DNA from: Dyadobacter sp. CECT 9275
GTDB taxonomy: Bacteria; Bacteroidota; Bacteroidia; Cytophagales; Spirosomataceae
Direction: 5' to 3'
NCBI RefSeq assembly: GCF_907164905.1
Contig: NZ_CAJRAF010000001.1
Coordinates: forward strand, 469,001-533,000
DNA: 64,000 nt
The notes beneath the pieces were generated by a model. That model saw only the letters and a program-made list of their open reading frames with translations, did no database searches and had not been told where the DNA came from. Below are positions 8,860 to 28,844 of this stretch, in pieces. Within the stretch, counting starts at the first letter, position 1; each line of letters starts with the position of its first letter. Both the position numbers and the translations under genes were made by a program.

Positions 8860-8879
8860 TTTCGGGTACGTACCCGAAA
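8860..8879. promoter_or_regulatory. Perfect 20-bp palindrome, predicted LacI-family operator
   Basis: TTTCGGGTAC followed by its exact reverse complement, centred on a CG-rich 14-mer CGGGTACGTACCCG (8863-8876). It sits 61 bp upstream of the first codon of the 8.8-kb operon. The same 17-base string recurs at 28828-28844 between a LacI-family gene and the gene it would regulate. LacI-type regulators bind such even palindromes with a central CpG. Assignment to that regulator is inference from position. Confidence 0.65.
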
Positions 8880-9267
8880 AATTTAGGATTAAAAGGGTAT
8901 AAGCTTTTTAAAATGTACATATACGTCTTTTCAGGATAACTCAGTATTGTAGAATTTTAATACCGATATGAAATAAATGAATTTTTAATTTTTGCCGGAT
9001 CCGCCTGGACCCGGCGAAATCAGATACACAAATATAAAATTTTTATTTTATGAAGATTATAATACCAACTTTTTATTTGGTAAATGTTTTTAGGAGGGGA
9101 AGGAAATTCTGCCTGCGGGTTGGATGACATCGTTTCCGCCCTTTCGGGTAAGCGGGCTGTACGTTAACCGCTTCTGAGGGGGGGGAGTTTTCAGTTTAGG
9201 CGATCAGTCTGGATAAGGGTCCCGGCACGTATTTTCCAGGAGGATGGTGATATCGTGCCGGGGTATT
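8880..9267. other. Non-coding stretch between two minus-strand operons
   Basis: No convincing gene. It holds a GC-rich hairpin at 8994-9015 (GCCGGATCC / GGACCCGGC, one mismatch, 4-nt loop) inside otherwise AT-rich sequence. Neither strand shows a T-run after the stem, so it is not a classical terminator. The rest shows nothing I can assign. Confidence 0.5.
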
Positions 9268-10659
9268 TCAGATCTTCGTTTGTGTAGTTCCGCCTTTTTC
9301 CATGGAGATGTCCACAGGGCGGTTTGTTTTCCAGGATCCTGCTGTAAAATCGGGAACATTAACAGAATTGGACCGATGTGCCACCGACCACTCACTCAAA
9401 GGTCCTATGGCGCTCCACAATGCAGCGTCGTAAACGTCCTGATCAAGCGGCAGTCCGTTTCTGAGACAGTCAATGGTGCGCCAGTCCATCAGGAAATCCA
9501 TACCTCCGTGGCCACCAACCTGTTTGGCCACTTCCCCAATTTTTTTAACAATGGGTGGGGTATATTTTTCTTCAAGCGCTTTAAATTCTTCATCCGAGAG
9601 CCATTCGTGTCCCTGTGAATAGCGGGCGGGAAGCGGATACTTCAGCGCACTGCCTTTGGTACCACTGATGAGCTGTATGCGCGAATAGGGACGGGGAGAA
9701 ATCACGTCAAACTGAAGCATGATCGTCTTGCCTTTCTTTGTCCGGATCGTGGTAGTATTCATCATACCGTTGTAGGGCTTGCCGACAAAGGATTTGAAAT
9801 CAGGATCTTTGGCGGCGAGTTCTCTGGCGGTATCTGCCATGACAAAATCATTATTAGACATGGATACCAGGTAGTCCATCTGGTCTCCTCTGTTGATATC
9901 CATGATCTGGCAAATAGGGCCAAGCCCGTGCGTTGGGTACAGGTTTCCCGTACGCTGTGAAAGCTCTTTCAGCTCCCACATCTGGTAAAACCTGTCTTTT
10001 GAAAAAACATATTCTGTTAAACTGTGGATATAAGCGCCTTCTCCGTGGGTAACTTCCCCAAAAAAACCGTTACGGGCCAGATTCAGATTTAGCAATTCGG
10101 TAAAATCATAACAGCAGTTTTCGGTCATCATACAATGTTTCCTGGTACGTTCCGACGTCTCCACCAACTGCCAGCATTCTTCTATTGTTTTGGCGGCAGG
10201 TACTTCCACACAGACATGTTTCCCATGGTTCATCGCAAATACGGCCATTGGTGTGTGTAGTGCCCATGGGGTTACAATGTACACCAGATCAATATCATTT
10301 CTGTCGCATAGCTTTTTCCAGGCATCGGGGTGGGTATCATAAAGTCCGGGGCTCTGACCCGAAACTTCGACCATTTTTTTTGCTTCATTCACTTTTTCAG
10401 GGCGCAGATCGCAGAGTGCTTTTATTTCAACCCCCTGGATTTTATTCATACGTTCCACCGCCGCCATGCCACGGTTGCCCAGGCCTATAAAACCAATCCG
10501 TACGACGTCCAGTTTGGGAGCGGCATAACCCGACATATTGAATTTCTGAACGTGATTCTTATCAGTCAACGCCTTTGTCAGTTGTAATTCCGACGGGGTA
10601 CTGAGTGCCATTCCCATCAGCCCTGCCTGTTTTAAAAATTCTCTGCGCTTACTTTCCAT
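9268..10659 (-). CDS. Gfo/Idh/MocA-fold glycosidase, GH109-like (alpha-N-acetylgalactosaminidase family)
   Basis: 463 aa NAD-dependent hydrolase or oxidoreductase. A Tat-like leader (KRREFLKQAG) precedes a Rossmann motif GFIGLGNRGM (about 56-65). The sequence CDLRPEKV, then TPWALHTPMAVFAMNHGKHV, VEVPAAKTIEE and ENCCYDF follow closely the pattern of GH109 enzymes, which cleave alpha-GalNAc through a transient NAD+-dependent oxidation. The gene is 16 bp downstream of the NodB-like gene and closes the nine-gene operon starting at 17906. A GalNAc-specific exported enzyme fits with the GH20 hexosaminidase and sulfatases nearby. A plain oxidoreductase role cannot be excluded. Confidence 0.75.
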   Translation of the reverse strand: MESKRREFLKQAGLMGMALSTPSELQLTKALTDKNHVQKFNMSGYAAPKLDVVRIGFIGLGNRGMAAVERMNKIQGVEIKALCDLRPEKVNEAKKMVEVSGQSPGLYDTHPDAWKKLCDRNDIDLVYIVTPWALHTPMAVFAMNHGKHVCVEVPAAKTIEECWQLVETSERTRKHCMMTENCCYDFTELLNLNLARNGFFGEVTHGEGAYIHSLTEYVFSKDRFYQMWELKELSQRTGNLYPTHGLGPICQIMDINRGDQMDYLVSMSNNDFVMADTARELAAKDPDFKSFVGKPYNGMMNTTTIRTKKGKTIMLQFDVISPRPYSRIQLISGTKGSALKYPLPARYSQGHEWLSDEEFKALEEKYTPPIVKKIGEVAKQVGGHGGMDFLMDWRTIDCLRNGLPLDQDVYDAALWSAIGPLSEWSVAHRSNSVNVPDFTAGSWKTNRPVDISMEKGGTTQTKI

Positions 10660-10675
10660 GTGGTTGAACCGTTTC

Positions 10676-11755
10676 TTATTCTGAAATACATGTATCTAAA
10701 AATGCCGGCTGGTATCCATTATTATGGGCCCATTTTACTGCGGTGATCAGTTTTTCGCGGTAATCGGGCTGATAATTGAAGTAGGACGAATAAAAATATT
10801 GCTCATGCACCAGCAGGTCCACATAAGGTGGACTGCTACCTTCTTCGGCATACTGATTGAGCCAGGGCTCTATTTCTTCTATTTTTTTGATATCAATCAC
10901 AATACTCGTTTTGATGAAAACCACATTTTCACTCATGTCTTTCCATACAAAACGTTTTTTGATATGCCGCCTTTCTTCTACGCTCAGGTAATAGCTTGCC
11001 GGATACAGGTCGTCATCCACATTGAAATATCCCAGTTGCCCCCGATAGCCAGCATCTCTCAACGCCCTGGAGGCCTCCCGGGTGGCTTCTCCCCAGTGTA
11101 TGGTTGTTACGCCGGTCATTACTTCTTCCCCGGCAAAACGCCTGATCTCCCCGATCACCAGGTCGCAATCCTTTTTTACCGTATCATAATCTGCGCTGAT
11201 ATAGGGCTGATCGGGAAATTCACCGCGGGCATGAAAGCTTAAAGTGAGCCAACCGGCATTGTCTTTCCACTCCTCTTTAAATTTGTCAGTAAACTGAGAC
11301 AGGTTGAAACCTTCTGTTTCGTAGAAAAGGTTCAGATGTATTTTCGTACCATAGGTATCGTTGATTTCTTTCAGCACAGCCAGATAAGGGTGCTCAAAAA
11401 GGGAGCTGTACACATCAGCTTGCTGCTGGATATCTCTCAGGAACCAGATGTTGTCGTCGATAGAAAGGCGGTATTTCCCTGCGAAATTTTTGAGACGATA
11501 CACGGTGATGCGGGTGTGCTCTCCGGTTGTGGCGTTTACGGCTTCCAGGGTATTTTCATAATCGGAAAGCTCGATTTCAGCGGAATAGTAACTATCCTCG
11601 AAGTTCGTTTGAACACCATTAATCGTAATTGAATTTCCCGCTGGGGCAGCCACTGATACTTTTGTTTTCAATGACTCCCCGGTCAGCGCGCCGTCCCGGG
11701 CATGAAGCATGTCGCCGTGTATGGGTTGAATGAAATACATTGCTTTATCGGTCAT
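10676..11755 (-). CDS. Hypothetical protein with polysaccharide-deacetylase-like barrel
   Basis: 359 aa without a signal peptide. Residues 1-105 look like a small beta-sandwich. From about 110 the sequence LSIDDNIWFLRDI starts a barrel-like region containing LSFHARGEFPD and TTIHWGEATREAS, then HEQYFY, with the DD and histidines expected of NodB-like deacetylases but without a confident full motif set. It is 95 bp after the SDR gene and 16 bp before the GH109-like gene, in the same operon. Call based on general pattern only; it may be a non-catalytic relative. Confidence 0.55.
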   Translation of the reverse strand: MTDKAMYFIQPIHGDMLHARDGALTGESLKTKVSVAAPAGNSITINGVQTNFEDSYYSAEIELSDYENTLEAVNATTGEHTRITVYRLKNFAGKYRLSIDDNIWFLRDIQQQADVYSSLFEHPYLAVLKEINDTYGTKIHLNLFYETEGFNLSQFTDKFKEEWKDNAGWLTLSFHARGEFPDQPYISADYDTVKKDCDLVIGEIRRFAGEEVMTGVTTIHWGEATREASRALRDAGYRGQLGYFNVDDDLYPASYYLSVEERRHIKKRFVWKDMSENVVFIKTSIVIDIKKIEEIEPWLNQYAEEGSSPPYVDLLVHEQYFYSSYFNYQPDYREKLITAVKWAHNNGYQPAFLDTCISE

Positions 11756-11850
11756 TTCATTTTGGGTTCATCGTGAGAAATTTCTGTCTAAAGATTGGCT
11801 TGCCCCGTTTCTGGATACAGGATCATAACCATAGCGAGAGAGCTGCACCG

Positions 11851-12594
11851 TTAATAAGTTGCTCTCCCGCCCGACAAGTCGAAGGTAAAACCAGTGGTGA
11901 AGCTGTTTTCTTTAGAAACGATATAGGTTGCAAGGTTAGCGGCTTCTTCCAGGGTACCACAGCGTTTCATCGGGATTTTGTCGGTCATGTATTTCACCTG
12001 GGCTTCGGGCATGGCAGCTACAAGCGGCGTCTGAATTACTGCCGGTGCCAGTGCATTAACGGTGATACCATTTTCTGCATATTCTTTGCCCTGTACTTTT
12101 GTCATTCCGATCACCGCCGCCTTGCTTGCCGAATAAGCCAGCATTCCGGCATTCCCTTCTTTCCCGGCAATGGAGGCAATATGCAGAATACGGCCATAAT
12201 TGTTTGCAAGCATACTGGGTAAAACAGCCTTGGAAGTGTAAAAACTCGCCATAAAGTTCAGCTCAAAAACCTTATGCAGGTTTTCGGAGCTTACCAGATG
12301 GCTGTGCGTGTTAGTGATTCCCGTAATGCCTGCGCAGTTGACCAGAATATCAATTCTGCCAAACCTTTTGAGTATCTGTTCAATCGCGCTTTCAACTAAA
12401 TCCTGCCTGGTGATATCAAGGACAATTGATTCAGACTGGTCAGGAAAATGGTCAAATTCGTTTTTTAAAGCCGTTTCGTTATAATCCAGTAACCCTACTT
12501 TGGCACCTTCATTCAGTAATTTTTTAGCAATTGCGAGGCCAAGACCGGAGGCAGCACCGGTAATGATAGCAACTTGTCCTTGAAAATCAGTCAT
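11851..12594 (-). CDS. SDR-family NAD(P)-dependent oxidoreductase
   Basis: Classical short-chain dehydrogenase of 247 aa. It has the cofactor motif TGAASGLG near residue 12, NCAG in the fourth strand, the catalytic Ser in HIASIAGKEG and the YSASK tetrad (Tyr and Lys). The C-terminus DLSGGRATY is typical of FabG-like members acting on sugars or hydroxy-acids. It lies 46 bp downstream of the DapA-family gene in the sugar-acid-like operon, so oxidation or reduction of a sugar acid or deoxy-keto acid intermediate is the likely role (inference). Confidence 0.85.
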   Translation of the reverse strand: MTDFQGQVAIITGAASGLGLAIAKKLLNEGAKVGLLDYNETALKNEFDHFPDQSESIVLDITRQDLVESAIEQILKRFGRIDILVNCAGITGITNTHSHLVSSENLHKVFELNFMASFYTSKAVLPSMLANNYGRILHIASIAGKEGNAGMLAYSASKAAVIGMTKVQGKEYAENGITVNALAPAVIQTPLVAAMPEAQVKYMTDKIPMKRCGTLEEAANLATYIVSKENSFTTGFTFDLSGGRATY

Positions 12595-12640
12595 GTTAAC
12601 GGTTTAGGTGTTTTGAGGCAGTGTACCTGCCGTATGTTTT

Positions 12641-13597
12641 TTACTTACTTGTATTCAATTCCAGTGGTGTAATCTCGTAATTTTCGTCGTGCAGCAAATT
12701 GATGATCCGCTGGTTGAGCTCCCTGATATAACTGATCGACGAAGCGTCCGGTATATAGGCGGCCTTACGTGATATACTGTTGGTGAGTATTCCACGGGCT
12801 ATCAGCAGCTCTTTTTCGGCGTAATGAAAAAGCTCCATATTTTGTAGTGAGAAGAATATCTGCGGCATCACTTTTTCAAAAAGATCAAAAGCTTTGGCAT
12901 CTTCACCGTTGCTCCGCAAGTTAAAAACTCTTTGCAGGATATCCGAAACGGCCAGCCCTGGCATTACGCCACGAATTCCTACAGGAATTAGTTCTAACAT
13001 ATATAGCCCGCCCCAGCCTTCGAAGAGCCCGACTTTGCCCTCGGTGATTTTGATGATCTCATCAAATTTGGGCGCACAAAGGGGTTCTTCCAGTTTCAGG
13101 TATTTGAAATTCGGATTTTCATCCATCAGGTTTTTAATAAAACTTACGCTAATGGATGAACCGCCCGGGTTGAAATCCTGAATCAAAACAGGGGTATTGG
13201 GAATTGACTGGAGAAATTCTGAGAGATAGGCTTTCAATGCGTTTTCGGGGAGGCTGAAAATCCGGGGAACGGCCAGTGAAACCACATCGGCACCTGCCGC
13301 AACATTGGCCTGTGCCAGCCTGATAGCTATTTTGAGAGACGGGTGATTGGACTGCGCTACAATTTTGATCCTGCCCGCTGCATGGTCAACAGCAACCTTG
13401 ACTACATGTAGTTTTTCTTCGTCAGTGAGTTTGTAAAATTCACTTGCGTAGGCGGGAAGACAAACAGCCTTGATGCCACTTGCGATGGCAAAGTCGATCA
13501 GGTCACGGAGGGCGTTGTCGTCAATGTCCTCATTTTCGGTAAAGGGGGTAGGAATAATAGGAACTACACCGTCGAATTCGTCTGCTGTATTAATCAT
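12641..13597 (-). CDS. DHDPS/N-acetylneuraminate-lyase family aldolase or dehydratase
   Basis: 318 aa TIM-barrel of the DapA superfamily. The predicted Schiff-base lysine is in YLKLEEP, in the sixth strand. The usual GTTGE substrate-carboxylate loop is replaced by AYASE, and the usual YN.P segment reads QDFNPGG, a variant known in subfamilies acting on 2-keto-3-deoxy sugar acids and not on lysine precursors. It overlaps the upstream EamA transporter gene by 4 bp. Next to an enolase-superfamily dehydratase it probably cleaves or dehydrates a 2-keto-3-deoxy acid (inference). Confidence 0.8.
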   Translation of the reverse strand: MINTADEFDGVVPIIPTPFTENEDIDDNALRDLIDFAIASGIKAVCLPAYASEFYKLTDEEKLHVVKVAVDHAAGRIKIVAQSNHPSLKIAIRLAQANVAAGADVVSLAVPRIFSLPENALKAYLSEFLQSIPNTPVLIQDFNPGGSSISVSFIKNLMDENPNFKYLKLEEPLCAPKFDEIIKITEGKVGLFEGWGGLYMLELIPVGIRGVMPGLAVSDILQRVFNLRSNGEDAKAFDLFEKVMPQIFFSLQNMELFHYAEKELLIARGILTNSISRKAAYIPDASSISYIRELNQRIINLLHDENYEITPLELNTSK

Positions 13598-14529
13598 ATT
13601 GTTTCTGAGTTTACTTTCGTCAGGTTTTTTTGTTGTGCTTTGTTATCTACAATTGTAAGTATTAAGGTGGAAGCCAATACCAGAACTCCCCCGATGATGG
13701 CTTGCGTTTTCAAGGTTTCTCCCAGTATAAATGCGGCGATTGGAAGGCCCATCAGCGTAATGAGATAGTTGGAAAGTGCTACCTGTGTGGCATCCAGGTT
13801 TTTAAGTGCTTTAAAGAACAGCAGCATGGACAGGAAATTGTGAAAGAGTGTGAGTGCTATCATTCCGATCCAGGTCTGTGTGGTATAGTCAGGTATTCTG
13901 GAGAACATTTCCGGTTCGTAATATGCCACCAAGGGTGCCAGGAAAATCACCAGAAAGAGGTAAGTGTAAAATACCATTTCCATTTCGGTAAATTTGCCGG
14001 ATATCTGCTTGCAGCCAACATTGTAGTATCCGTTACCTGCAATCGCGATTATTATCAGGATATTTCCCCAGGCATATTGAGAACTGAAATCCATTTTTTT
14101 AAGATCGTCCGTGGAGCATAATACCACACCTATGATTGCGATGGCAAAACTGATCCAGCGAGCCCGGTTCATTTTTTCTTTTAAGATCAGAAAGGCAAAA
14201 ACGGCAGTGACTACCGGAAGAGCCAGTACAAGAATGGCAGCATTGCTGGCCAGTGAATACTGCGTACCGTAGGTCATGAACACCTGTGAAGGAAAGGCAC
14301 CCAGGGCCGCCAGCTGGATAAATATCAGATAGTCTTTCAGCTTTCTATTTCCCTTTTTGAAATCCTTGATCACAAAGGGGATAAGGAAAAGAGTGGCCAG
14401 TACCATAGGAGCCCACACAGTGAAGTAGGGGCCAACCTGATCCTGCGTCAGTTTGATGCAGGTAAAGTGAAATGACCAGATCAGGTTACAAACGAAGAGG
14501 ATAACCCAGGACGTGATGGATTTGCTCAT
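13594..14529 (-). CDS. EamA/DMT-family transporter
   Basis: Ten-helix inner-membrane protein of 311 aa made of two EamA repeats: hydrophobic segments run throughout, with a conserved pattern ALPVVTAVFAFLILKEKMNRARW closing the first half and FILGETLKTQAIIGGVLVLASTLIL closing the second. It overlaps the MLE gene upstream and the DapA-family gene downstream by 4 bp each, so all three are translationally coupled. Position suggests uptake or efflux of the operon's substrate or a side product; the solute cannot be named from sequence. Confidence 0.85.
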   Translation of the reverse strand: MSKSITSWVILFVCNLIWSFHFTCIKLTQDQVGPYFTVWAPMVLATLFLIPFVIKDFKKGNRKLKDYLIFIQLAALGAFPSQVFMTYGTQYSLASNAAILVLALPVVTAVFAFLILKEKMNRARWISFAIAIIGVVLCSTDDLKKMDFSSQYAWGNILIIIAIAGNGYYNVGCKQISGKFTEMEMVFYTYLFLVIFLAPLVAYYEPEMFSRIPDYTTQTWIGMIALTLFHNFLSMLLFFKALKNLDATQVALSNYLITLMGLPIAAFILGETLKTQAIIGGVLVLASTLILTIVDNKAQQKNLTKVNSETI

Positions 14530-15659
14530 ATAGTACTTTCTAAAAACTGGTTCGTTTTGTATTTGTCAATCGCGTCATAGTCGGGTACTATGCCAAGTCC
14601 GGAGCCGGCAGGTACTATGGCCGCCCCATTTTCAAATCGGATCGGATTTTTGAGCAGGTCATCTTCCCGCACCAATTCTCCGAAAATATCGGAAGGTATG
14701 CTGCAGTTAATGCTTGCTGCGGCAATATGCAATCCCATGGCTTCGGAAATCCCAAGGTCCACCTCCGAGCCGCGCCAGCATGTTTTGCCTTCCATGTGGG
14801 CAATCTCGGCCAGGAGTACACAATTATAGGCGGAGCCGTTGAAATTATAACCATCGGCGGCATCGGCCCGCACAAATGTGATCATGTCCCGGATGTCCTG
14901 GGTGTAAGGCAGCGAAATATGCCGGTAAAGCGGGATGCCTAAATTGGATTTCAGGTATTGGAAACCTGCAACATCTCCGTGCAGGATGGGGTCTTCGAGT
15001 CCAAACATGATGCTGGTGTCCACCCCTTCCATCAATTTTAATGTGGTTTGTACATCATTCCATCGCTGGTTGGGATCCAGGATTATTTTGATTCCTTCAC
15101 CGCATTTTTTTCTGATTTCATCCGTCCATAAACGAACCGGGTCTTCATCCGAACATTTGAATTTAAAAACCTTATGTCCTTTCTGCATGGCTTCGTAAGC
15201 CTTTTGGGCAGCATCTTCGGGGGTTCTGCGACCTGTCCAGCCGTTGCAGTCCACGCGGTCACGATAGCCTCCGCCCAGCAGTTGGTATACCGGAACATTC
15301 AAAAGCTTGCCCACCACGTCCAGAACTGCACTTTCAAATGCCTCATAAATCCGCTGGTCGGTTACCGGGAGCCGTCTCCAGTTTAGTTTGAGTACATCTT
15401 TTCCTGTAAAATTCTGCATGGCGGCCCAGAGGAGTTCCCTGGATGCGCTCCGGTAGGTTTCACCTATGCCGGTCAGGCCATTTTTAAGTTTGATTTCAAT
15501 AATCCATTTGGGCTGGCTGGCAAATTGAGTCCAGCTTTCTCCTGTCATGAATTTTTTTGCAAATTCGGTATCCTTGTCCAGGACCAGGTCAGAGTTGAGG
15601 CTGCCAGGTTTGGATGGGACAATTACCTCGGTTGCGCGAATGGAATGGATAAGGGTCAT
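14526..15659 (-). CDS. Mandelate racemase/muconate lactonizing enzyme family protein (acid-sugar dehydratase-like)
   Basis: Enolase-superfamily member of 377 aa. The N-terminal capping domain is followed by the barrel with a KxK motif (KFK in GHKVFKFKCS), metal ligands in ILDPNQRW (Asp) and GLEDPI (Glu), and a C-terminal segment VDLGISEAMGLHIAAAS typical of the family. These residues are intact. Members with this set dehydrate aldonic or aldaric acids to 2-keto-3-deoxy acids, or epimerise. It directly abuts the 3-hydroxyacyl-CoA dehydrogenase-like gene (no gap) and overlaps the transporter gene by 4 bp. Confidence 0.85.
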   Translation of the reverse strand: MTLIHSIRATEVIVPSKPGSLNSDLVLDKDTEFAKKFMTGESWTQFASQPKWIIEIKLKNGLTGIGETYRSASRELLWAAMQNFTGKDVLKLNWRRLPVTDQRIYEAFESAVLDVVGKLLNVPVYQLLGGGYRDRVDCNGWTGRRTPEDAAQKAYEAMQKGHKVFKFKCSDEDPVRLWTDEIRKKCGEGIKIILDPNQRWNDVQTTLKLMEGVDTSIMFGLEDPILHGDVAGFQYLKSNLGIPLYRHISLPYTQDIRDMITFVRADAADGYNFNGSAYNCVLLAEIAHMEGKTCWRGSEVDLGISEAMGLHIAAASINCSIPSDIFGELVREDDLLKNPIRFENGAAIVPAGSGLGIVPDYDAIDKYKTNQFLESTI

Positions 15660-16616
15660 TTATGATTCAATGGATTTGGTATTGTATTTTTCTGCGAGCT
15701 TACGGATGTCATAACTAAATTCGATGAAGGACTCCTCCCATTTTGCGGCCGTTTCTTTGGTATAAGGGTAAAATCCTTTCCCATTACCGACCCCCTTTGC
15801 ACCCTCCGCCACCAGCTTCTCCATTATCTCCGGGGTGTGTGTACTATTGTCAAGCTCAGGAAAAAGATCCTTCATCACGGTTAAATATGCCGGGATACCG
15901 GTAAGATCCATGAACCGGAATGGGCCTGCAAAAGTGATCCAGTACCCGAGGTCGTTCCGTAGCGAACGGTCCACATCTTCAACGGTCGCATATCCGTTTT
16001 CCACCAGATTAAAAGCTTCCCGGAGCATGGCATACATGATCCGGTTGGTAATAAATCCGCGGATATCTTTTTTCAGCAGTGAAGGTTCTTTTCCCCAGCT
16101 TTCAGCCAGTTTTACAATAGCCTCAGCATTTTTAATGTCGGAAGACTTCCCGCAGATCACTTCCATGAAACGTGTAATGTGTGCAGGTTCAGCCCAGTGG
16201 ATCCCTAGCAGGCGTTCGGGGTGCCGAAGCCCTTCCTGCAGAATAGATACAGGAATAGCAGATGTATTGCTCCCGATGATAGCAGCAGGGGACACAACTT
16301 TTTCAAGCTCCCGATACAATTTTTGTTTCTCGTCAACACTTTCCGTAATGGTTTCGATGATTACCTCATGCCCAGCCAGCAGATCCAGCTGGTCCGTGAT
16401 GGTAATTTTTTGAATGATCACATCTGCACCTTCCTGCAAGAATCCTTCAGCTTCAAGTTCTTTCAGGAAATTCAGGATGCGTTCCCTGGCAGTACCGGCT
16501 TCTGTTATATCTTTTACGAGCGAGGTAACCTCATGTCCGGCGGCCAAAATACAGGTAGCAATGCTGCTCCCCATAAGCCCGAGGCCGACGGTACCAATTT
16601 TTATTTTGTTGATCAT
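15660..16616 (-). CDS. 3-hydroxyacyl-CoA dehydrogenase family protein (L-gulonate/carnitine dehydrogenase-like)
   Basis: 318 aa NAD-dependent dehydrogenase. The Rossmann motif VGLGLMGSSIA is near the start, followed by the family's SNTSAIPVS segment (catalytic Ser region) and GIHWAEPAHITRFMEVI, where His and Glu form the catalytic pair. The usual FNPV of fatty-acid enzymes is replaced by WAEP, as in hydroxy-acid dehydrogenases of the L-gulonate 3-dehydrogenase/carnitine dehydrogenase type. No enoyl-CoA hydratase partner is present. In this operon oxidation of a sugar acid is more likely than beta-oxidation (inference). Confidence 0.8.
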   Translation of the reverse strand: MINKIKIGTVGLGLMGSSIATCILAAGHEVTSLVKDITEAGTARERILNFLKELEAEGFLQEGADVIIQKITITDQLDLLAGHEVIIETITESVDEKQKLYRELEKVVSPAAIIGSNTSAIPVSILQEGLRHPERLLGIHWAEPAHITRFMEVICGKSSDIKNAEAIVKLAESWGKEPSLLKKDIRGFITNRIMYAMLREAFNLVENGYATVEDVDRSLRNDLGYWITFAGPFRFMDLTGIPAYLTVMKDLFPELDNSTHTPEIMEKLVAEGAKGVGNGKGFYPYTKETAAKWEESFIEFSYDIRKLAEKYNTKSIES

Positions 16617-16638
16617 GTTTCACTATTTTAAAAACCGG

Positions 16639-17025
16639 TTACACCTTCCTAATCCTTGCTATGGCATCAATCTCTACTTTGATACCATCTCCCAAAACCG
16701 ACTGAACAGTGGTGCGGGCAGGCTTTATCCCCTCAAAAAATGAAGCGTAAGTTTTATTGTATCGGTCAAAATCGTTGATGTCGCTCAGGTGTGCAGTGCA
16801 TTTAACAATGTCCTCTTTGGTGCCGCCGGCTGCTTCCACGATCTTGAGAATGTGATGCAAAGTATTGGCTGTCTCTTCCTCAATTGTCCCGCGGATGACC
16901 TCGCCGGTTGCAAGATCGAGCGAGCCCTGGCCGCTAACAAAAAGCCAGCCGTCTACCAGGATGCCAGCGGAATAAGCACCGGTATCTGCAATTTTGTCGG
17001 GGTGGTGTATTTCTGTTTTACTCAT
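16639..17025 (-). CDS. RidA/YjgF/YER057c-family protein
   Basis: 128 aa Rid-superfamily protein. Diagnostic features are LFVSGQGSLDLATGE, the HHILKIVEAAGG helix and the C-terminal PARTTVQSVLGDGIKVEIDAIA, which holds the conserved arginine that hydrolyses enamines/imines. RidA proteins detoxify 2-aminoacrylate-like intermediates or act as dedicated deaminases in catabolic operons. Here it sits between the creatininase-family gene and the dehydrogenase gene, suggesting that a nitrogen-containing sugar derivative passes through this pathway (inference). Confidence 0.9.
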   Translation of the reverse strand: MSKTEIHHPDKIADTGAYSAGILVDGWLFVSGQGSLDLATGEVIRGTIEEETANTLHHILKIVEAAGGTKEDIVKCTAHLSDINDFDRYNKTYASFFEGIKPARTTVQSVLGDGIKVEIDAIARIRKV

Positions 17026-17114
17026 GGTTCAGTGTCTTATTCAGGGTTTGGGGGCCTGTGATTTTGGTATCGTATGTTAGTATCTGTCGGGTAAAATGTT
17101 TTTCTGGTCTGCTT

Positions 17115-17906
17115 CTATTTTTTAAGGCTTTCCATCAATGGCCATTCCTTAAATGATATTAAAAACTCGGTAACCGTCCGGACTGCGGTTTCGAAAAGGT
17201 GTTTCCCTTTGTCAGGAGTGGCAAGCTGAGGTTCTCCGCTGCTGCCATTACCGGAAATAAACCTGGTGGGTTTAAACAGGGTCACACCTTTATAAGCCTC
17301 GTCATCCTCCCATGGAATGTACCCGTTACTTGCTGGCCGGGGAGCTCTTTCGGCTTTGTCCATCCACACCTTTTCCGGGAAAAGATGTAACATTAAGCTT
17401 GTTTCGTATTCGCATGCATGGCTTAGCGCCGGGCTTTCCATCGGCGGGGCACCAGCAAAAGCCTTTCCGCCTACCTCCCAGTATGTTGCGAGGGCAATGT
17501 TGGGTTTGTATTTTTCATCTACCGTTTTGCTTAATACGGCAAGAGCTTGTTTCACGGGAGTGATATTGCCGCCATGGCCATTTAGCAAAACTATTTTGCG
17601 AAAACCTCCTGACAACATAGACAGCACAATGTCGACAATAACTTTGCTATACAGTTCCGGACCGATGCTGATCGTACCGCCAAAATCCAGATGGTGATCA
17701 CTTGATCCGAATGGGAGCGTCGGGCAAAGTAAGACATCGGACGGTAAGTTTTTTTCAACCTGGGAAGCCACATTGCTGACAATATCAGTGTCTGTTGCCA
17801 CTGCCAGCTGAGGGCCATGTTGTTCAATGGCGCCCAGAGGTAACAACAGGATTTTGTCAGTTGCAAGTGCTTGGATAGACGTATAGGCCAGGTTGGAAAA
17901 CAGCAT
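17115..17906 (-). CDS. Creatininase-family amidohydrolase
   Basis: 263 aa metalloenzyme. The motif LPLGAIEQHGP followed by TDTD gives the family's Glu, His and Asp metal ligands, HLDFGGTIS and LLNGHGGN supply the next conserved elements, and HACEYETSLM carries the late glutamate. Family members hydrolyse cyclic amides (creatinine) or act on formamide groups. It is the first gene of the operon; a 16-bp perfect inverted repeat containing TTTGTAAAC lies 71-119 bp upstream of the start codon. With RidA downstream, an amide or amino-bearing substrate is likely (inference). Confidence 0.85.
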   Translation of the reverse strand: MLFSNLAYTSIQALATDKILLLPLGAIEQHGPQLAVATDTDIVSNVASQVEKNLPSDVLLCPTLPFGSSDHHLDFGGTISIGPELYSKVIVDIVLSMLSGGFRKIVLLNGHGGNITPVKQALAVLSKTVDEKYKPNIALATYWEVGGKAFAGAPPMESPALSHACEYETSLMLHLFPEKVWMDKAERAPRPASNGYIPWEDDEAYKGVTLFKPTRFISGNGSSGEPQLATPDKGKHLFETAVRTVTEFLISFKEWPLMESLKK

Positions 17907-21943: not shown

Positions 21944-21954
21944 GATAGAATATT

Positions 21955-24900
21955 TTAAAATGATAGTTTCAGGTTCAGTCCAATATTCCTGCTTGAAGGA
22001 AGATTGTAATATTCGATACCCTGGTAGTTACTGTTGCCAAAGCTCACCTCGGGGTCGAAATCCATTTTGCGTTTCCCTACGCCCGGAACGTCCAGAATGG
22101 CATTACCCCGGTAGATGAAGAACAGGTTACGGGCTACAAAAGACAAACGAGCCATTTTGATAAAACCAGGCAGGTTTTTAAACTCATAGCCCAGGGTGAG
22201 TTCCCTCACTCTTACATTTGTTGCATGATACGTAAAAAATTCTCCCCACGAATAGTCTCCCTGCGCTACGGTTTGCCAGAATTTTTCGCTGTTGACTGCA
22301 ACCGTATTGGCTGCGCCTTCGGCTGTTACACCATTTACAACCCATGAGCCCGCTTCGCGGAAATTTTCGGTGCTTGCAGCAGTTCCCGCATAGGCCATTT
22401 GCGCAGCTGTTCCGGAGGTAATCACCCCGCCAAATTTGCCGTCCACCAATACTCCTAATGACCAGCTTTTGTAGGCAAATGTGTTATTGAACCCTGCTGT
22501 AAATTTCGGGTTGTAGTTTCCCAGTTTCTCGATAGCATCGGTTTTTACCGGAACACCATTTTCATTGACCACATGTTTGCCATTCAAGGTTTTCCATTTG
22601 TAGCCATAAAGATCTCCAAATGAGCCTCCCTCTTTAATTAGCGGCGTAGCGGAACGGACGCTTGTTGAAGAACCCAGGTATAGCTGGCTCACACCTTCAT
22701 ACAATTCCACTACCTTATTTTTGTTCACGGCATAGTTGAGGCCGATGTTCCAGGTGAAATTTTTGCTTGTAACAGGTTTTGCAGAAAGTACCAGTTCAAA
22801 ACCGGTGTTCTGAATATTACCCGCATTCACATTTAGGGTTGAATATCCCGAGGAAGCCGGTGAAGCAACTCTTAATAACTGATTTTTAGAGTTGGTTTTG
22901 TAATACGTGAAATCCAGGCCGAGACGGTTGTTGTAGAATCGCCATTCGGTACCTGCTTCAAAGGACTGGGTTAGTTCGGGTTTCAGGTCAGCAATGGCTT
23001 TGGTGTTGCTGCTGGCAATGTAACCTCCCAGGCCACCGCGGATATAGGTATACGTTTGCCCAAGCAGATAGGGGTCTGCGTCATTACCAACCTTGGTAAC
23101 CGATGCCCGTACTTTTCCAAGGCTGATCCAGGTGGGAAGTTTCACCATTTCGGAGATAATGGCAGACAGTCCCACAGAAGGATAGAAGTAGGAATAGGGC
23201 GAAGGAAGCGTACTAGACCAGTCATTTCTGGCAGTCAGGTCCAGGAACAGATAATCTTTGAAAGATAACTGCGCCGTTCCGTAAACGGATTGTAACTCCC
23301 GTTTGGTAGTGGCCGTTTCAACTTTTAGGGTTGTAGCATAGCTAAGGTCATATTTGTTGGGGAAACCAAGTCCGTCGGCAGCATTTACACGATGGCGCAT
23401 GCTTCTGTTTAATATAGAACCACCAATGTTATAGTTGATTTTTAGCTCAGGTGTAATGTTATTTGTACCTGTCAGGAGGATATCAGCATTTTTTTCAGAT
23501 ATAAAATCGTTACCTTCTGAATAGTATCCTCCTGGCTGCCGCGCATAGTTAACCGTATTGTTGGCATATTTCTGGCTGATAAAATCATTGTACCGGTCTG
23601 AGCTTACCCGTCCCTGGATATTGAGCCAGTCGGTTAGTTTGTACCTTAAAACCAATAAACCAGTAACCCTGCTGCGGTTTTCGTCGTGATGTGTATTGTT
23701 GATCGTCCAATAGGGATTCATATATACCGCATCCGGGCTTGTCCAGTAAGTAGGTGTTTCAACCCCCGTTGTATTTACATTTTTATAGGATTTCAGAGTT
23801 GCGGGATCAACGCTTCTCGGAATACGATAAATGTTGGCAACCACCATCCCGTCACCACCTACACCAGGTTTATTATAAATGTTCTGGATCATGTATGTAA
23901 TCTTTCCATCGGCTGTGAGTCGGTCGGTGATATCATAACTCAGCCGGGCATTGAAAGTATTACGTGACAGGGAGTTGTGCGGTACTATCCCATTAATGTA
24001 ATTGTTGGAGTAGGAAAGGTACGACTGTACTTTTTCAGATCCGCCGCTTACCCCGACCGAATTATTGGTCGACACTGCGGTGCGGAAGAAATCTTTGATA
24101 TTATCAGGATAAGCCTGAAGATTCACCGTCGATCCCGCCCAGTTGGTAACGCTCTGGCCCGCAATTTTCGGACCCCAGCTTCCGCCGGTGATCGTGGAAT
24201 AGATGCCGCCTGAACCCTGGGCATAGGAGTTCTGAAGGTTAGGTGTGGTAAATGCTTTGTCGAAGGTTACACCTGAGTTGAAATTGACATTCACCTTTCC
24301 GCTTTTTCCCTTTTTTGTTGTAATAATGATGACACCGTTTGCTGCACGGCTACCGTACAACGCAGCACCGGCTGCACCTTTTAATACGTTAATGGATTCA
24401 ATATCATCCGGGTTGATACTTGACGCACCGTCACTGCCACTATGGCCACCAGCATCGTAACGTACCTGGCCCGCTGGGCTGGAATTGTCGATTGCGACAC
24501 CATCCACCACAATCAGAGCATTATTGGAACCCTGAATAGACCGGTTTCCGCGCAGCACAATCCGGGTGGCACCACCGGGGCCGTTTGCTGAGGGCGTGAT
24601 GGTCAGGCCTGCAATTTTTCCCGAAAGGGTATTGGTAAAGTTGGCATCTCTGACTTCATTAATCTGTTCAGATCCAATTCGCTGGGTAGAATAGGTGAGT
24701 GATTTAGCGGTACGTTCTATACCGAGTGCGGTTACAACTACTTCCCGGAGCACCACATTGTCTTCGGTCATAGAGATATCTCCCAATGTCGTTTTGTTGC
24801 CAATCTCGATTTCCAGTGTTACCATACCTATATAGGATATAGTGAGCGTGTTAGTGCCTTCCGGAACGGATAGAGAAAATTTTCCTTCGGTATCGGTCAT

Positions 24901-25146
24901 TACGCCGGAGTTACTGCCTTTTGCAACCACAGATGCACCCGGAACGGCCACCCGGGCTTTGTCGACTACCCGGCCGGTAACCTGTTTTGTCTGCTGGGCA
25001 AACACCCGGCTACCAATGGGCAGAGCAGCCACGCTGCCGACCAGTTCCGCGCAAAGTAGCAGAGCTGTGAGCCGGGCAGCCAATGTGAAGCGTCTGCCGG
25101 TACTCGGCTTTGGGTTAATTTTTAATACTTTGGATTGTGTTTTCAT
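21955..25146 (-). CDS. SusC/RagA-family TonB-linked outer-membrane transporter
   Basis: 1063 aa TonB-dependent transporter. After a long signal region ending near VFAQQ come a carboxypeptidase-regulatory-like domain (about 55-130, VTGRVVDKARVAVPGASV), a TonB-box-like segment (LREVVVTALGIER), the plug with NVLKGAAGAALYGSRAANGVIIITTKKGK, and a 22-stranded barrel ending in GLNLKLSF. It imports oligosaccharides across the outer membrane with its SusD partner. No anti-sigma or extracytoplasmic sigma gene is adjacent; three TTTGTAAAC-type sites 210-390 bp upstream suggest control by the GntR regulator instead. Confidence 0.95.
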   Translation of the reverse strand: MKTQSKVLKINPKPSTGRRFTLAARLTALLLCAELVGSVAALPIGSRVFAQQTKQVTGRVVDKARVAVPGASVVAKGSNSGVMTDTEGKFSLSVPEGTNTLTISYIGMVTLEIEIGNKTTLGDISMTEDNVVLREVVVTALGIERTAKSLTYSTQRIGSEQINEVRDANFTNTLSGKIAGLTITPSANGPGGATRIVLRGNRSIQGSNNALIVVDGVAIDNSSPAGQVRYDAGGHSGSDGASSINPDDIESINVLKGAAGAALYGSRAANGVIIITTKKGKSGKVNVNFNSGVTFDKAFTTPNLQNSYAQGSGGIYSTITGGSWGPKIAGQSVTNWAGSTVNLQAYPDNIKDFFRTAVSTNNSVGVSGGSEKVQSYLSYSNNYINGIVPHNSLSRNTFNARLSYDITDRLTADGKITYMIQNIYNKPGVGGDGMVVANIYRIPRSVDPATLKSYKNVNTTGVETPTYWTSPDAVYMNPYWTINNTHHDENRSRVTGLLVLRYKLTDWLNIQGRVSSDRYNDFISQKYANNTVNYARQPGGYYSEGNDFISEKNADILLTGTNNITPELKINYNIGGSILNRSMRHRVNAADGLGFPNKYDLSYATTLKVETATTKRELQSVYGTAQLSFKDYLFLDLTARNDWSSTLPSPYSYFYPSVGLSAIISEMVKLPTWISLGKVRASVTKVGNDADPYLLGQTYTYIRGGLGGYIASSNTKAIADLKPELTQSFEAGTEWRFYNNRLGLDFTYYKTNSKNQLLRVASPASSGYSTLNVNAGNIQNTGFELVLSAKPVTSKNFTWNIGLNYAVNKNKVVELYEGVSQLYLGSSTSVRSATPLIKEGGSFGDLYGYKWKTLNGKHVVNENGVPVKTDAIEKLGNYNPKFTAGFNNTFAYKSWSLGVLVDGKFGGVITSGTAAQMAYAGTAASTENFREAGSWVVNGVTAEGAANTVAVNSEKFWQTVAQGDYSWGEFFTYHATNVRVRELTLGYEFKNLPGFIKMARLSFVARNLFFIYRGNAILDVPGVGKRKMDFDPEVSFGNSNYQGIEYYNLPSSRNIGLNLKLSF

Positions 25147-25644
25147 AGTTTTCGGTCAAGTTTCTTCAAAATCACGTCATCAGGGTTACTTAGAAATTAA
25201 AAAAGAAGTGGATTGTTTAAATGGAAATGAAATGCTTAAGTAATTGGAGTTATGCGTACAGTATATTCCCATAGGCAACAGGTTGGTTAAATAATGGATG
25301 CGAACTGTTAGTCTGTAATCAGCAGGTATCTGGTATTGCCATCCTTTGGTTGAAGGATTTATGTTTACAAAAATAATATATTTATGTTTACAAAAAAATT
25401 AAAATAATGTTTTTTGAATTTAGGCAAAAAAATATGTTTTGAGGTGTATTTGCAGGTTATGCCTAATTATATTTGTATTTGGCCGGCTGAGGGGTGTTTG
25501 CTAGGGATGTTCTGGGATAATTTGTAAACATAAACAGTATTTTAAATTGTTTATGGTAGGCAGGATGAGCGGGTCTGGTATTTGTAAGGCATCGGAAGGG
25601 CGAGGCTGTAACCAGATCAATTAGAAAGGGGGGCTTGTGAAGTG
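25147..25644. other. 498-bp non-coding region between GntR gene and SusC
   Basis: AT-rich leader and promoter region of the SusC operon. It contains the three repeated TTTGTAAAC-type sites described separately; no open frame with coding character was seen. Confidence 0.6.
25358..25536. promoter_or_regulatory. Three TTTGTAAAC-type sites upstream of SusC
   Basis: TTTATGTTTACAAAAA occurs twice in direct repeat (25358-25373 and 25381-25396, 23-bp period), and TTTGTAAACATAAACA lies at 25521-25536 in the opposite orientation. All share the core seen upstream of the GntR gene and of the creatininase gene. They sit in the gap between SusC and the GntR gene, consistent with regulation of SusC by that regulator. 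Confidence 0.6.
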
Positions 25645-26283
25645 TTAATCCATGTCTAACGACGCAGATTCTCCTCTGATCAGGTGTTTGCGTAAGGTTT
25701 CTTCGGCTAGCTTCGGATCCTTTTCTTTGAGGGCTTTCAGGATCTGACGATGTTCCTGGTCGGTCAGTTCGTAATCATCCATGTGGGTCTGGGTTTTGCC
25801 CAGCTTCTGATGGAACAGTGGGATGTTGCTCACTTGGTATAAATCGCGCAGCTTCTCGTTGTTGGCGCTGTCGATGAGTGTTTCATGGAATTTAACGTCG
25901 GCCTCACAGGCGCCGCCGAAATAACCTCCCTGTACCATATTGGTGAAATCGTCGCAGATTGCTTCGAGTTTTTGCAGGTACTGGTCGTCGATTTTTTCGA
26001 GTGCCAGCCGCAGGGCGCCCAGTTCCAGTATCTCGCGAAGTTCTCTGATTTCCCTGATGTCATCAACGGTCATCGATTTTACAAAAAAACCTCCTTTTTC
26101 GCCAAAAACAATAAGTTTTTCGCCCATGAGCCGGGTAAGCGCTTCGCGGATGGCTATTCGGCTCACCTCCATTTTCTTGGCCCAGAAATCTTCTTTCAGC
26201 CGTGTGCCGGAGCTGAGCTGGTTGGAGAGTATTTTTCTTCTTAGTTCGAGGTATACCTTATTGGCAAGCGATTCTTCTTTCAT
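25645..26283 (-). CDS. GntR-family regulator, FadR/FCD subfamily
   Basis: 212 aa repressor or activator. Residues about 8-72 form the winged helix (KVYLELRRKILSNQLSSGTRLKE...EVSRIAIREALTRLMGEKLI). Residues about 80-205 form the helical FCD ligand domain with metal-type residues in EADVKFHETLI, QEHRQIL and RKHL. FCD regulators usually bind sugar acids or other carboxylates, which fits the operon downstream. A palindromic TATTTGTAAACAAATA lies 7 bp upstream of the start codon, pointing to autoregulation; related sites precede SusC and the creatininase gene. Confidence 0.9.
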   Translation of the reverse strand: MKEESLANKVYLELRRKILSNQLSSGTRLKEDFWAKKMEVSRIAIREALTRLMGEKLIVFGEKGGFFVKSMTVDDIREIRELREILELGALRLALEKIDDQYLQKLEAICDDFTNMVQGGYFGGACEADVKFHETLIDSANNEKLRDLYQVSNIPLFHQKLGKTQTHMDDYELTDQEHRQILKALKEKDPKLAEETLRKHLIRGESASLDMD

Positions 26284-26477: not shown

Positions 26478-27710
26478 CTAGTGAAACAAAGGATTATTGA
26501 AAAACAGCTCCTTGAAATTGATGATTGCCAGTGAAAAGATAATGATCAGCCCAAGCGCACCAAAGATTTTTACAGGTGTGCTGTTTACTTTGTCGCCCAT
26601 GATATTTTTATCGTTACCAACCATGTACAGGGCGGTTCCGATAAAAGGCACGATAAAAATCGTGACACTTTGTGCGAAGACGATCAGTTCAAGTGGTAGC
26701 TTGCCAAATTTGATAGCTATGGAAGCACCTACCACCATTACAAGTGCTACGAGGTATTTTACCGACTTGGAACTGAAATTACTTCCCAGACCCAGTGCGT
26801 CGCCGAGCAAGGTGCCTCCCACAGAGGCGTTCCCGATGAGGGATGAAAATGCTGCACCGAATAATCCTACAAGGAACAGAGTGGAAGCACTTTCACCAAA
26901 AATGGGTTCAAGCGCTTTGGCCATGTCGGTGGCCGAGTTGACAGCTATGCCCTTCGGGTGCAGAATAGCCGCCGCACAGATGATTACAATGCTGCACATA
27001 CAGCCCAGCAATATAATTCCGGTAGTACTGTCGTTTTTGCTGTTTTTCAGTTCGGGCCGTACACGTATTCTTTCTTGAATAAGATAAGACTGGTACAATG
27101 CACCGACAATAGAGAAACAGGAGGCAATAAAGGCAATGATGAGGCCTTGAGAACCTTCAGGTATGGACGGGGTGGTATAACCTTTCAGGATTTGTCCGAT
27201 ATCCGGTTTTGCCCAGAAGAAGGTGGTTACAAAGGAAAAAAGTTTAACAAAGATCAGCAGGATCATCGTGCGTTCCAGTACCGAGTAGAAACTCCGGAAG
27301 AATAACAGGCTGATGCCTATTGCATTAAAAAAGATTATCCAGGGGACAGGAGAGGTATGGTACAATTCGCCGACCGCTATACCGACACCGATGGAGTTCC
27401 CTGCCTGAAAGGATGTGCTCACCAGAAATACCCCTATACCCATTGCGATGGATGCTCCCTTTCCCCATTTCTGTTTCACCGATGCCAGTAGCGACTGGTC
27501 AGTTGCAACGCCTATCCGCGTGGACATGGAGGTGAAAATTGCCATGAAAAAAATAGCGACAATAACCACCCACAGGAGTGAATAGCCATATACGGCTCCG
27601 ATCTTGGAAGTAATGGTAAGTTTACTCGGTCCGAACACAAGGGCGGCGGTGATCATGCCGGGGCCAAGGGATTTGAGCCACTTGAGCAGGTTTTGTCTGA
27701 AGGTTTCCAA
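26478..27710 (-). CDS. Nramp-family transporter lacking canonical metal-binding motifs
   Basis: 410 aa inner-membrane protein with about 11 hydrophobic segments and the overall layout of the Nramp/MntH family (GPGMITAALVFGP in helix 1; FSIVGALYQSYLIQERI in helix 6). The family's metal-binding DPGN of helix 1 reads GPSK (27-30) and the MPH of helix 6 reads LYQS (205-208), so the ligands for Mn2+/Fe2+ are absent. The substrate is therefore probably not a divalent metal. It lies 69 bp downstream of a Gfo/Idh/MocA gene under the LacI-type operator, so carriage of an organic acid or sugar-derived solute is a reasonable guess. Confidence 0.8.
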   Translation of the reverse strand: METFRQNLLKWLKSLGPGMITAALVFGPSKLTITSKIGAVYGYSLLWVVIVAIFFMAIFTSMSTRIGVATDQSLLASVKQKWGKGASIAMGIGVFLVSTSFQAGNSIGVGIAVGELYHTSPVPWIIFFNAIGISLLFFRSFYSVLERTMILLIFVKLFSFVTTFFWAKPDIGQILKGYTTPSIPEGSQGLIIAFIASCFSIVGALYQSYLIQERIRVRPELKNSKNDSTTGIILLGCMCSIVIICAAAILHPKGIAVNSATDMAKALEPIFGESASTLFLVGLFGAAFSSLIGNASVGGTLLGDALGLGSNFSSKSVKYLVALVMVVGASIAIKFGKLPLELIVFAQSVTIFIVPFIGTALYMVGNDKNIMGDKVNSTPVKIFGALGLIIIFSLAIINFKELFFNNPLFH

Positions 27711-27779
27711 AGCTTTGTGTAATCAGTTCGTGAATCTCCGAGGAGGGCTTTAAGTTTATGTCAGTGAAGTTTGAGGCAC

Positions 27780-28781
27780 TTATTTTTTTGCCTTTGCCAG
27801 TACGCTTTCCAGCGTTACCGTTTTTCCTCCCTGCCGCTTGCTTTCGTCAGCCGCTTCCATAAATGTAAATATCTCTATGGTTTCCTCGGGTGTTACAGGA
27901 ACCTCACCAGTCTTAAAATATTTGATAATGTCGGCTAAAAGTGGTTCGTAGCCTGCATAAGGGCCTAATATCTTGTTGCCCGTCTGCGTAAAGACCGTGC
28001 CGCCGTAGTCGTGTTTTCCTGTACGGGTGCCGCGGAAGGTTCCGGTGCGCCCGTCCGCCCATATTCCCACTACGATGTCCGTATTAGGGGTATTGACCCT
28101 GGTGACGGTCTTACAGCCAGTACCCATTACTGTATATAAGGCTTCAACGCCATGGATACCGTACCAGAAAAGGTCAGGGTGCGTTTTTTCCAGTACAGCG
28201 GGGCTGAAGGTATCTGCCCCCACTACTTTGGATTTATCTATTGACTCAAGTCCTTTGATGTACCGGAGCGAAGAAGCGGAGAAAATAGGTATTTTATATT
28301 TTTTTGAAGCCTCGAAAATAGCAAGGGTGTCTGCCAGAGATGCCGCCACTGGTTTGTCAATAAACATTCTTTTTCCAGCCTTGAGGACTTCCGTAGCCTG
28401 TTCCAGATGCAGCCTTCCATCATTGGTTTCCAGTAGTACAACGTCCACTTTCGACAGAAGTTCTTTGATGGAGCTGGTAATTTCCACACCCATTTTTTTG
28501 ACTTCCTCAATGTACCCGGGAATCCTTTTGGTACTTGTTTCAATATCCTTGCTTCCGTAAGGATAGGCCGCAACAACTTTGTAACCGTCAAAAACCGGGT
28601 CGGGCTGTTCTGCGTTGAGGGCTTTGGTAAATGCAATACTGTGAGAGGTGTCCAGGCCAATGATACCTACCCGCTTTCCGTCTGCATTGGAAGCGAAAAC
28701 GGGAAAAGAATTGACAAAGCCAAGTCCTGCGCCTGCCATGATGGATGATTGAACAAATTTCCTGCGGCTAAAAGTTGTCAT
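27780..28781 (-). CDS. Tat-signal Gfo/Idh/MocA-family oxidoreductase
   Basis: 333 aa NAD(P)-dependent oxidoreductase. A twin-arginine leader (FSRRKFVQSS then MAGAGLGF) precedes the Rossmann strand RVGIIGLDTSHS, in which the usual GxGxxG is degraded to GLDTSH, a variant common in exported bacterial members. DKPVA (the family's EKP-type motif) and a C-terminal alpha/beta domain follow. Its promoter region contains the LacI-type palindrome at 28828-28844, and the LacI gene lies directly upstream. The substrate is unknown; it probably oxidises a cyclitol or sugar ring. Confidence 0.82.
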   Translation of the reverse strand: MTTFSRRKFVQSSIMAGAGLGFVNSFPVFASNADGKRVGIIGLDTSHSIAFTKALNAEQPDPVFDGYKVVAAYPYGSKDIETSTKRIPGYIEEVKKMGVEITSSIKELLSKVDVVLLETNDGRLHLEQATEVLKAGKRMFIDKPVAASLADTLAIFEASKKYKIPIFSASSLRYIKGLESIDKSKVVGADTFSPAVLEKTHPDLFWYGIHGVEALYTVMGTGCKTVTRVNTPNTDIVVGIWADGRTGTFRGTRTGKHDYGGTVFTQTGNKILGPYAGYEPLLADIIKYFKTGEVPVTPEETIEIFTFMEAADESKRQGGKTVTLESVLAKAKK

Positions 28782-28827
28782 CTTGGAGAAATGTAAATGG
28801 GTTAGGAATAATCAGTAAGACCAATGA

Positions 28828-28844
28828 TTTCGGGTACGTACCCG
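28828..28844. promoter_or_regulatory. Second copy of the LacI-type palindrome
   Basis: TTTCGGGTACGTACCCG, identical over 17 bases to 8860-8876, with the 14-bp perfect palindrome CGGGTACGTACCCG at 28831-28844. It lies 47 bp upstream of the oxidoreductase start and 118 bp past the end of the LacI gene. Confidence 0.65.

Follow-up and report, generated by a model that had tools for sequence, protein, structure and literature searches.

The LacI-family regulator encoded at 28962..30020 on the minus strand of the analysed DNA (a stretch of 64,000 nucleotides from Dyadobacter sp. CECT 9275, called the window below) is very likely, at a probability of about 0.9, the repressor acting on operators ahead of two window operons and of at least three more targets elsewhere in the genome. 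The operator would be the palindrome CGGGTACGTACCCG, here called first-type, and the distance between the two window cores is 19,968 bp. The two distant clusters share a DNA switch because, very probably, one sugar-sensing repressor controls both. An earlier note on this DNA, made from its letters alone, had proposed a single regulon. The three further exact sites in the genome, a joined operon in relatives and a paralogous LacI with a variant operator go beyond it.

The 17-mer TTTCGGGTACGTACCCG was found at 8860-8876 and 28828-28844, the two places named in the earlier note. Operator 1 is the perfect 20-bp palindrome TTTCGGGTACGTACCCGAAA at 8860..8879, with a 14-bp core at 8863-8876. Operator 2 spans 28828..28847, with its core at 28831-28844; neither is assigned a strand. 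The core of operator 1 ends 63 bp before the start codon of a probably exported alpha/beta hydrolase of 357 amino acids (7726..8799, minus strand), the first gene of operon 1. The core of operator 2 ends 49 bp before the start codon of a Gfo/Idh/MocA oxidoreductase of 333 amino acids with a twin-arginine-like N-terminus (27780..28781, minus strand), the first gene of operon 2. Distances of 45-65 bp ahead of two minus-strand operons, and a lacI gene directly upstream of the second site, are thus borne out. So is the view that a chance match is very unlikely: with up to three mismatches allowed the 17-mer gives four strand-matches at the two places, against 0.08 expected from dinucleotide shuffles of the window. 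The palindrome is of even length with a central CG, as expected of LacI/GalR-family operators. Such a form is the norm in the family, found for 1173 of 1303 regulators surveyed (PMC4052901).

The 352-amino-acid LacI protein has the two domains of the LacI/GalR family, a LacI helix-turn-helix (PF00356, E 4.8e-18) and a periplasmic-binding-protein-like domain, Peripla_BP_4 (PF13407, E 3e-35). Its recognition helix reads VSIATVDRV, with isoleucine at position 21, and its best solved chain is 3gbv, a putative LacI-family regulator. A leucine, L60, lies in the hinge-helix motif NILASRLA and is invariant in 12 aligned rows. The hinge-helix leucine inserts at the central CG (PMC2978694); its equivalence to L60 comes from our own alignment. 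The protein did not reach the NCBIfam equivalog cut-offs for RbsR (85.6 vs 382) or CcpA (85.5 vs 442.35).

A search of the genome of the window (7.2 Mb in 4 contigs), which the earlier note had proposed, gave five exact copies of CGGGTACGTACCCG, every one ahead of a gene start, and none of the reversed control. Apart from the window sites, exact copies precede an NAD-epimerase/DHDPS-like gene pair (gap 69 bp), a 780-amino-acid CE15-like, or glucuronoyl-esterase-like, double esterase (59 bp) and a glucose/sorbosone dehydrogenase with cytochrome c (139 bp). Four of the five sites are in no open reading frame (ORF) of 60 or more amino acids, and one overlaps an antisense ORF of 77 amino acids; ORFs throughout are mechanical predictions. 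The genome has two one-mismatch sites. The first precedes an M14 carboxypeptidase gene by 81 bp, yet falls within an ORF of 141 amino acids; the second, within a TonB-receptor (SusC-like) gene, shows that background matches do occur. With up to two mismatches there are 22 matches against 18 per strand for the control, which is background, so these weaker sites were left unused. The gaps (49, 59, 63, 69 and 139 bp for exact sites, 81 bp for the one-mismatch site) agree with the 30-140 bp at which LacI-family sites usually lie upstream of genes (PMC4052901).

The association of site and regulator is conserved in the genus. The exact first-type site occurs in 43 of the 48 genus genomes, 65 copies by summing, and the reversed control in none; a LacI orthologue is present in all 48 (E <=1e-95). 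Each of the remaining five genomes has a one-mismatch site between LacI and the Gfo/Idh gene, which is also where the site typically lies in relatives. These forms are CGGGCACGTACCCG (on one strand) in G001, G005 and G041, CGGGTGCGTACCCG in G032 and CGGGGACGTACCCG in G035. The form in G001, G005 and G041 (L086, L087, L174) is a hybrid of one half-site of each operator type, and these genomes also carry the second paralogue described below. Among the fetched loci, 57 distinct lacI genes precede a Gfo/Idh gene, and for 56 of them the gap contains the operator, with one arm mismatch at most. What the genomes show directly is that the sites exist, where they lie and that they go with LacI and with orthologous genes.

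In relatives the two window operons are often one. Beyond the hydrolase gene, operon 1 consists, all on the minus strand, of a DegT/DnrJ/EryC1/StrS aminotransferase of 458 amino acids with a twin-arginine-like N-terminus (6310..7686), a neutral/alkaline ceramidase-like protein of 462 (4925..6313), an amidohydrolase (Amidohydro_2) of 326 (3941..4921), a predicted beta-propeller of 439 with no family match at E 0.001 (2592..3911) and, last listed, a PVC-type heme-binding-domain protein (DUF7133) of 707 (459..2582). Operon 2 continues from the Gfo/Idh gene into an Nramp-like transporter of 410 amino acids (26478..27710, minus strand), whose orthologue heads the gene run of the second LacI in relatives. 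In 24 of the 48 genus genomes an operon-1 orthologue directly follows the LacI-linked Gfo/Idh gene: DegT in 20, the ceramidase-like gene in two, the amidohydrolase in one and the PVC-heme gene in one. The Nramp gene takes this place in three (the window genome, G008 and G042) and a CE15-like gene in one. Long runs of LacI-operator-Gfo/Idh-DegT-ceramidase-like-439-amino-acid genes (L079, L081-L083, L092, L172 and L174-L176; the LacI match of L175 begins only at residue 111) unite the first gene of window operon 2 with the core of operon 1. In another genus (G064, L112) one operator stands before Gfo/Idh and another before DegT. From these long runs and the arrangement in G064, the layout of the window is best understood as one cluster in dispersed form. 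The window operons are therefore probably fragments of a LacI-operator-Gfo/Idh-DegT-ceramidase-like cluster that many relatives still have in one piece; in the window they are divided by about 17 kb, occupied by a SusC/D-GH20-GH109-GntR cluster that appears to be separate.

Outside the genus, the family sample has the exact site in 57 of 200 genomes, with control copies in two, and the LacI query matches 38 of 150 (E <=1e-60). For ten of 16 first-type LacIs of other genera an exact first-type operator is found no more than 450 bp downstream. At L108-L110 the operator is about 12 kb away, before or near Gfo/Idh. Five site-bearing family genomes (G063, G086, G107, G113 and G123) have no LacI match at E <=1e-30, and all nine occurrences fetched from them lie deep in long ORFs. 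Of the 87 distinct exact sites at the other fetched loci, 73 are intergenic and no more than 250 bp from a gene start, 12 are at the edge of an ORF and two deep in one; the loci of this sample of 96 distinct exact sites were mostly fetched for LacI or for the site, hence it is not random. The single regulon proposed in the earlier note is strongly supported by these results: site and LacI orthologue go together throughout the genus and in other genera, half of the genus genomes place an operon-1 gene directly after the LacI-linked Gfo/Idh gene, and in genomes with no LacI match all nine fetched sites are inside long ORFs. A LacI (66%)-exact operator-Gfo/Idh (72%) module was also seen in another family of the same order (L238, G265), perhaps by horizontal transfer.

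The position of the operators points to a mode of action. A probable -7 element, TAAATTTT (8878..8885, minus strand), lies one base upstream of the operator-1 core, and another, TATATTTA (28845..28852, minus strand), directly abuts operator 2. The motif TAnnTTT(A/G) immediately precedes the operator at 42 of 49 first-type and all 22 second-type LacI-adjacent sites. The consensus is TAtATTTA ahead of the 49 and TAccTTTA ahead of the 22, the last base being mostly A. The motif resembles the published -7 consensus of Bacteroidetes (sigma-ABfr) promoters (PMC6847099, PMC7366714), TAHHTTTG, which spans -12 to -5 (PMC6847099). An operator abutting such an element would have its core at about -4 to +10, and this placement directly after the -7 element suggests repression. 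In the proposed mechanism the palindrome would be the operator of the protein encoded at 28962-30020, whose dimer would occupy the two sites in the window and no fewer than three exact ones elsewhere in the genome; the one-mismatch site before the M14 carboxypeptidase gene would be a possible sixth target. At -4 to +10 the bound repressor would block RNA polymerase or initiation. A sugar-like inducer, held in the periplasmic-binding-protein-like domain, would release it. LacI binding, repression as the mode of action, induction and the nature of the ligand are inferred.

A second LacI, 60-69% identical to the window protein, is present in 27 of the 48 genus genomes, one copy being truncated. 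It mostly stands before a run of Nramp, epimerase and DHDPS-like genes, followed in several of the loci read by a dehydrogenase and a SusC-like gene; in G016 the second LacI and the Nramp run are on different contigs. Between the second LacI and the Nramp run is the symmetrically altered operator CGGGCACGTGCCCG, here called second-type, or a one-mismatch form of it. Exact CGGGCACGTGCCCG occurs in 26 of the 48 genomes and its control in none. Paralogue and second-type operator are both present in 25 genomes, the paralogue only in two, the operator only in one and neither in 20 (Fisher p 2.7e-10, not corrected for kinship). The two paralogue-only genomes, G013 and G025, have a one-mismatch site each, and in the operator-only genome, G017, the site is near a different LacI. 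Two side observations concern the second-type operator. By our count 18 genomes carry it well away from the second LacI, and at L179, L181, L183, L184 and L186 it stands before another Gfo/Idh-like gene (three were checked against Pfam), with a SusC-like gene nearby in four. In G043 (L175, L220) both LacI copies look interrupted or truncated and both operators are intact.

The two kinds of LacI were classed by their downstream gene alone, as Gfo/Idh-type or Nramp-type. Residue 21, which we take to be residue 17 of E. coli LacI, is isoleucine in 57 of 57 Gfo/Idh-type proteins and threonine in 25 of 25 Nramp-type proteins. The varying operator positions are T/A for 52 of the 57, hybrid T/G for three and T/C for one, no operator having been found for the last; they are C/G for all 25 Nramp-type proteins. 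Within residues 1-65, residue 21 is the only fixed difference between the two sets; the whole protein has five such positions (21, 241, 268, 309 and 328). Outside this classing are 23 distinct LacIs that precede neither gene (residue 21: 15 Ile, 4 Leu, 3 Arg, 1 Thr) and proteins without a readable helix, such as the second copy of G043. The co-occurrence tally, and the residue-21 count for other genera given next, cover LacI proteins of 300 or more amino acids.

Ile21 is found in all 16 first-type proteins of other genera (first-type being defined there by the helix), 10 of which have the exact operator, and the first-type state, Ile21 with the first-type operator, is therefore probably ancestral. 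The second-type (Thr21) clade has a support of 100/100; several end branches of the tree are long. Among the 400 bootstrap trees examined, out of 1000, this clade groups with an eight-row first-type set in 307 and with the 33-row first-type group in none. Since the Thr21 proteins form one clade, perhaps from one event, the link between residue and base is a strong correlation, not proof.

The window genome has neither the second paralogue nor an exact second-type operator. Its Nramp gene comes after Gfo/Idh, under operator 2, and first-type operators precede its epimerase/DHDPS pair and its dehydrogenase; no LacI match was found beside the epimerase locus (L016). G008 (L136) and G042 (L129), also without the second paralogue, have LacI, operator, Gfo/Idh, Nramp, epimerase and DHDPS in one run, and the same run occurs in another genus (G071, L101). 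Where the second paralogue is missing and the gene set lies elsewhere, G029 and G020 have a degenerate or hybrid site before Nramp, and no site was seen before Nramp in G047 and G014. In part of the genus, then, lacI is duplicated, and the second copy, with Thr21, is found with an operator that differs symmetrically by one base pair per half-site and with a subset of the target genes. It has perhaps an even chance of being right that one LacI regulon became two insulated ones within the genus through the change of Ile21 to Thr together with that of TACGTA to CACGTG, and that the window genome retains or has returned to the undivided state. A further LacI paralogue of 47% identity (G000:C2:1615724-1616782; L116:11725-12783), with the helix VSLGTVDRV, was also noticed. 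About 25 bp after its stop codon is a near-palindrome, TTTCGTGCACGTGCACAATT, which resembles the second-type operator. In one comparison of the distant LacI-C paralogues a near-palindrome follows the gene in the window genome (L116) alone; in another comparison G017 shows a similar one.

Several observations weigh against control of these operons by LacI as a repressor. No such palindrome stands ahead of lacI in the window, as autoregulation would have it, and across the compared loci the 600 bp before lacI hold no first-type palindrome, bar a one-mismatch form at L115. Autoregulation is found in 72% of the LacI-family regulators studied, being frequent and not obligatory (PMC4052901). The three sulfatase genes beside lacI have no operator copy in the window. 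A clear -7 element was not seen before the CE15 and M14 sites, nor at seven of the 49 first-type LacI-adjacent sites. In 20 of the 48 genus genomes no query gene directly follows Gfo/Idh. Six of the 16 first-type LacIs of other genera (L104, L108-L111 and L113) have no exact operator within 450 bp downstream, and at L240, from another family, no site was found with two mismatches or fewer.

The palindrome might instead be bound by another regulator, LacI being a mere neighbour. GntR-family regulators also bind palindromes, and the strongest candidate that the window offers is the GntR/FCD protein (25645-26283), encoded between the two sites; its orthologue in G014 (L134) stands shortly before a site. 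This candidate was rejected on distribution: its orthologue occurs in 20 of the 48 genus genomes (E <=1e-50), against 43 for the exact site and 48 for LacI. The site also adjoins LacI in other genera, in 10 of 16 cases, and its bases change together with the LacI recognition-helix residue. A binder other than LacI is very improbable. That the window sites are chance matches or a non-regulatory repeat element is less probable still, close to negligible. Short palindromes do recur by chance in large genomes, two-mismatch matches are at background, and genomes without a LacI match carry copies too, inside genes. However, the 65 real copies in 48 genomes stand against no control copies, the sites are mostly intergenic where LacI exists, and they abut promoters; with the shuffle expectation, the control counts and the intergenic placement, chance was rejected as an explanation. 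The LacI protein could be the binder and yet act as an activator or dual regulator at both operons, rather than as a simple repressor. This is improbable, as the core overlaps the expected start region right after the -7 element, a position suited to repression, and the majority of LacI-family proteins bind DNA without ligand (PMC4052901).

For the altered operator of the second LacI copy, residues other than 21, or other causes, may be responsible, Ile21/Thr21 being a clade marker that hitchhikes. The single Thr21 clade allows residue and operator change to be one event, and four positions outside the DNA-binding domain also differ consistently. In addition, the published code ties residues 15 and 16 (PurR numbering) mainly to base positions 5 and 4, not 3 (PMC2978694). 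Against this, residue 21 is alone in its fixed difference over residues 1-65 and lies within the recognition helix, and the hinge helix is alike in both classes. Hitchhiking appears rather unlikely.

The proposed regulon is like the LacI-family sugar regulons described in PMC4052901 in its helix-turn-helix and sugar-binding domains, its even palindrome with a central CG and its targets near the regulator gene, and unlike them in that no autoregulatory copy was found here. The word 'Bacteroidetes' has no occurrence in the available text of that survey. No paper containing the first- or second-type 14-mers was found in the literature searched, and no title on a Dyadobacter LacI regulator was among the matches listed. 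KdgR, UxaR, UxmR and UxuR of Bacteroides thetaiotaomicron, of the same family and phylum, control uronate pathways (PMC3878776). RbsR/PurR, AglR/ThuR and GntR/IdnR are known pairs in which a regulator was duplicated and its operator, its target set or both then changed (PMC4052901). Unlike in those pairs, the genes held by the second copy are under a first-type operator in G008, G042 and G071, and the Dyadobacter LacIs differ by one fixed residue in 1-65. In the LacI recognition code (PMC2978694) the varying residue would, by our alignment, be the first of two specificity positions (AA-15). Unlike the group studied there, the Dyadobacter LacIs have TVDR, not TVSR, and their varying base is at position 3 from the centre, not 4 or 5.

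A substrate common to both window operons, as predicted earlier, is plausible. Among the solved structures, the DegT protein has its best match in 7b0d and looks like scyllo-inosose-type and sugar aminotransferases, the esterase is CE15-like, with 8trx as best match, and the Gfo/Idh protein has weak sequence matches only. The 439-amino-acid protein is predicted to be a generic beta-propeller (mean predicted local distance difference test score, pLDDT, 78.6), with no informative match among the matches listed. The available text of a paper on Dyadobacter fermentans CE15 enzymes (PMC11096219) has no occurrence of 'LacI'. With low confidence, the substrate may be guessed to be a uronic-ester- or sulfate-bearing plant or algal glycan fragment.

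Between the operons, at 9268..26283 on the minus strand, is a catabolic cluster with genes for GH109-like, SDR, DHDPS, EamA, mandelate-racemase-like, 3-hydroxyacyl-CoA-dehydrogenase-like, creatininase, GH20, SusD, SusC-like and GntR/FCD proteins. No operator copy was found within it at up to three mismatches and it was not assigned to the LacI regulon; it looks like an independent catabolic unit. Upstream of lacI the three sulfatases are encoded at 30584..35259 on the plus strand. In G027, G034, G018 and G029 operators are found in pairs in the space that separates sulfatase orthologues from a divergent SusC-like gene. A 1397-amino-acid protein with four CBM6 stretches and a Por secretion tail is encoded at 37968-42161.

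These results give poorly annotated Dyadobacter gene sets (Gfo/Idh, DegT, ceramidase-like, beta-propeller, epimerase, DHDPS-like and CE15-like) a probable regulator and operator, and thus a way towards the substrate that they have in common. A long-standing question, which has reportedly been treated in a computational study from mutation data (PMC1464816), is how a repressor and its operators can part ways after duplication with control kept throughout. The genus may offer a natural two-state system for it, in which the proposed switch would take one residue and, in each half-site, one base pair. Sister species have a duplicate repressor whose switch is slightly different, and the division of one circuit into two could thus be studied directly; if the reading is true, the starting and end states of repressor-operator divergence would both be available in living species. 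The regulon is very probably real; it is of an ordinary kind, in an undescribed instance that opens onto a cleaner-than-usual natural case of repressor-operator divergence.

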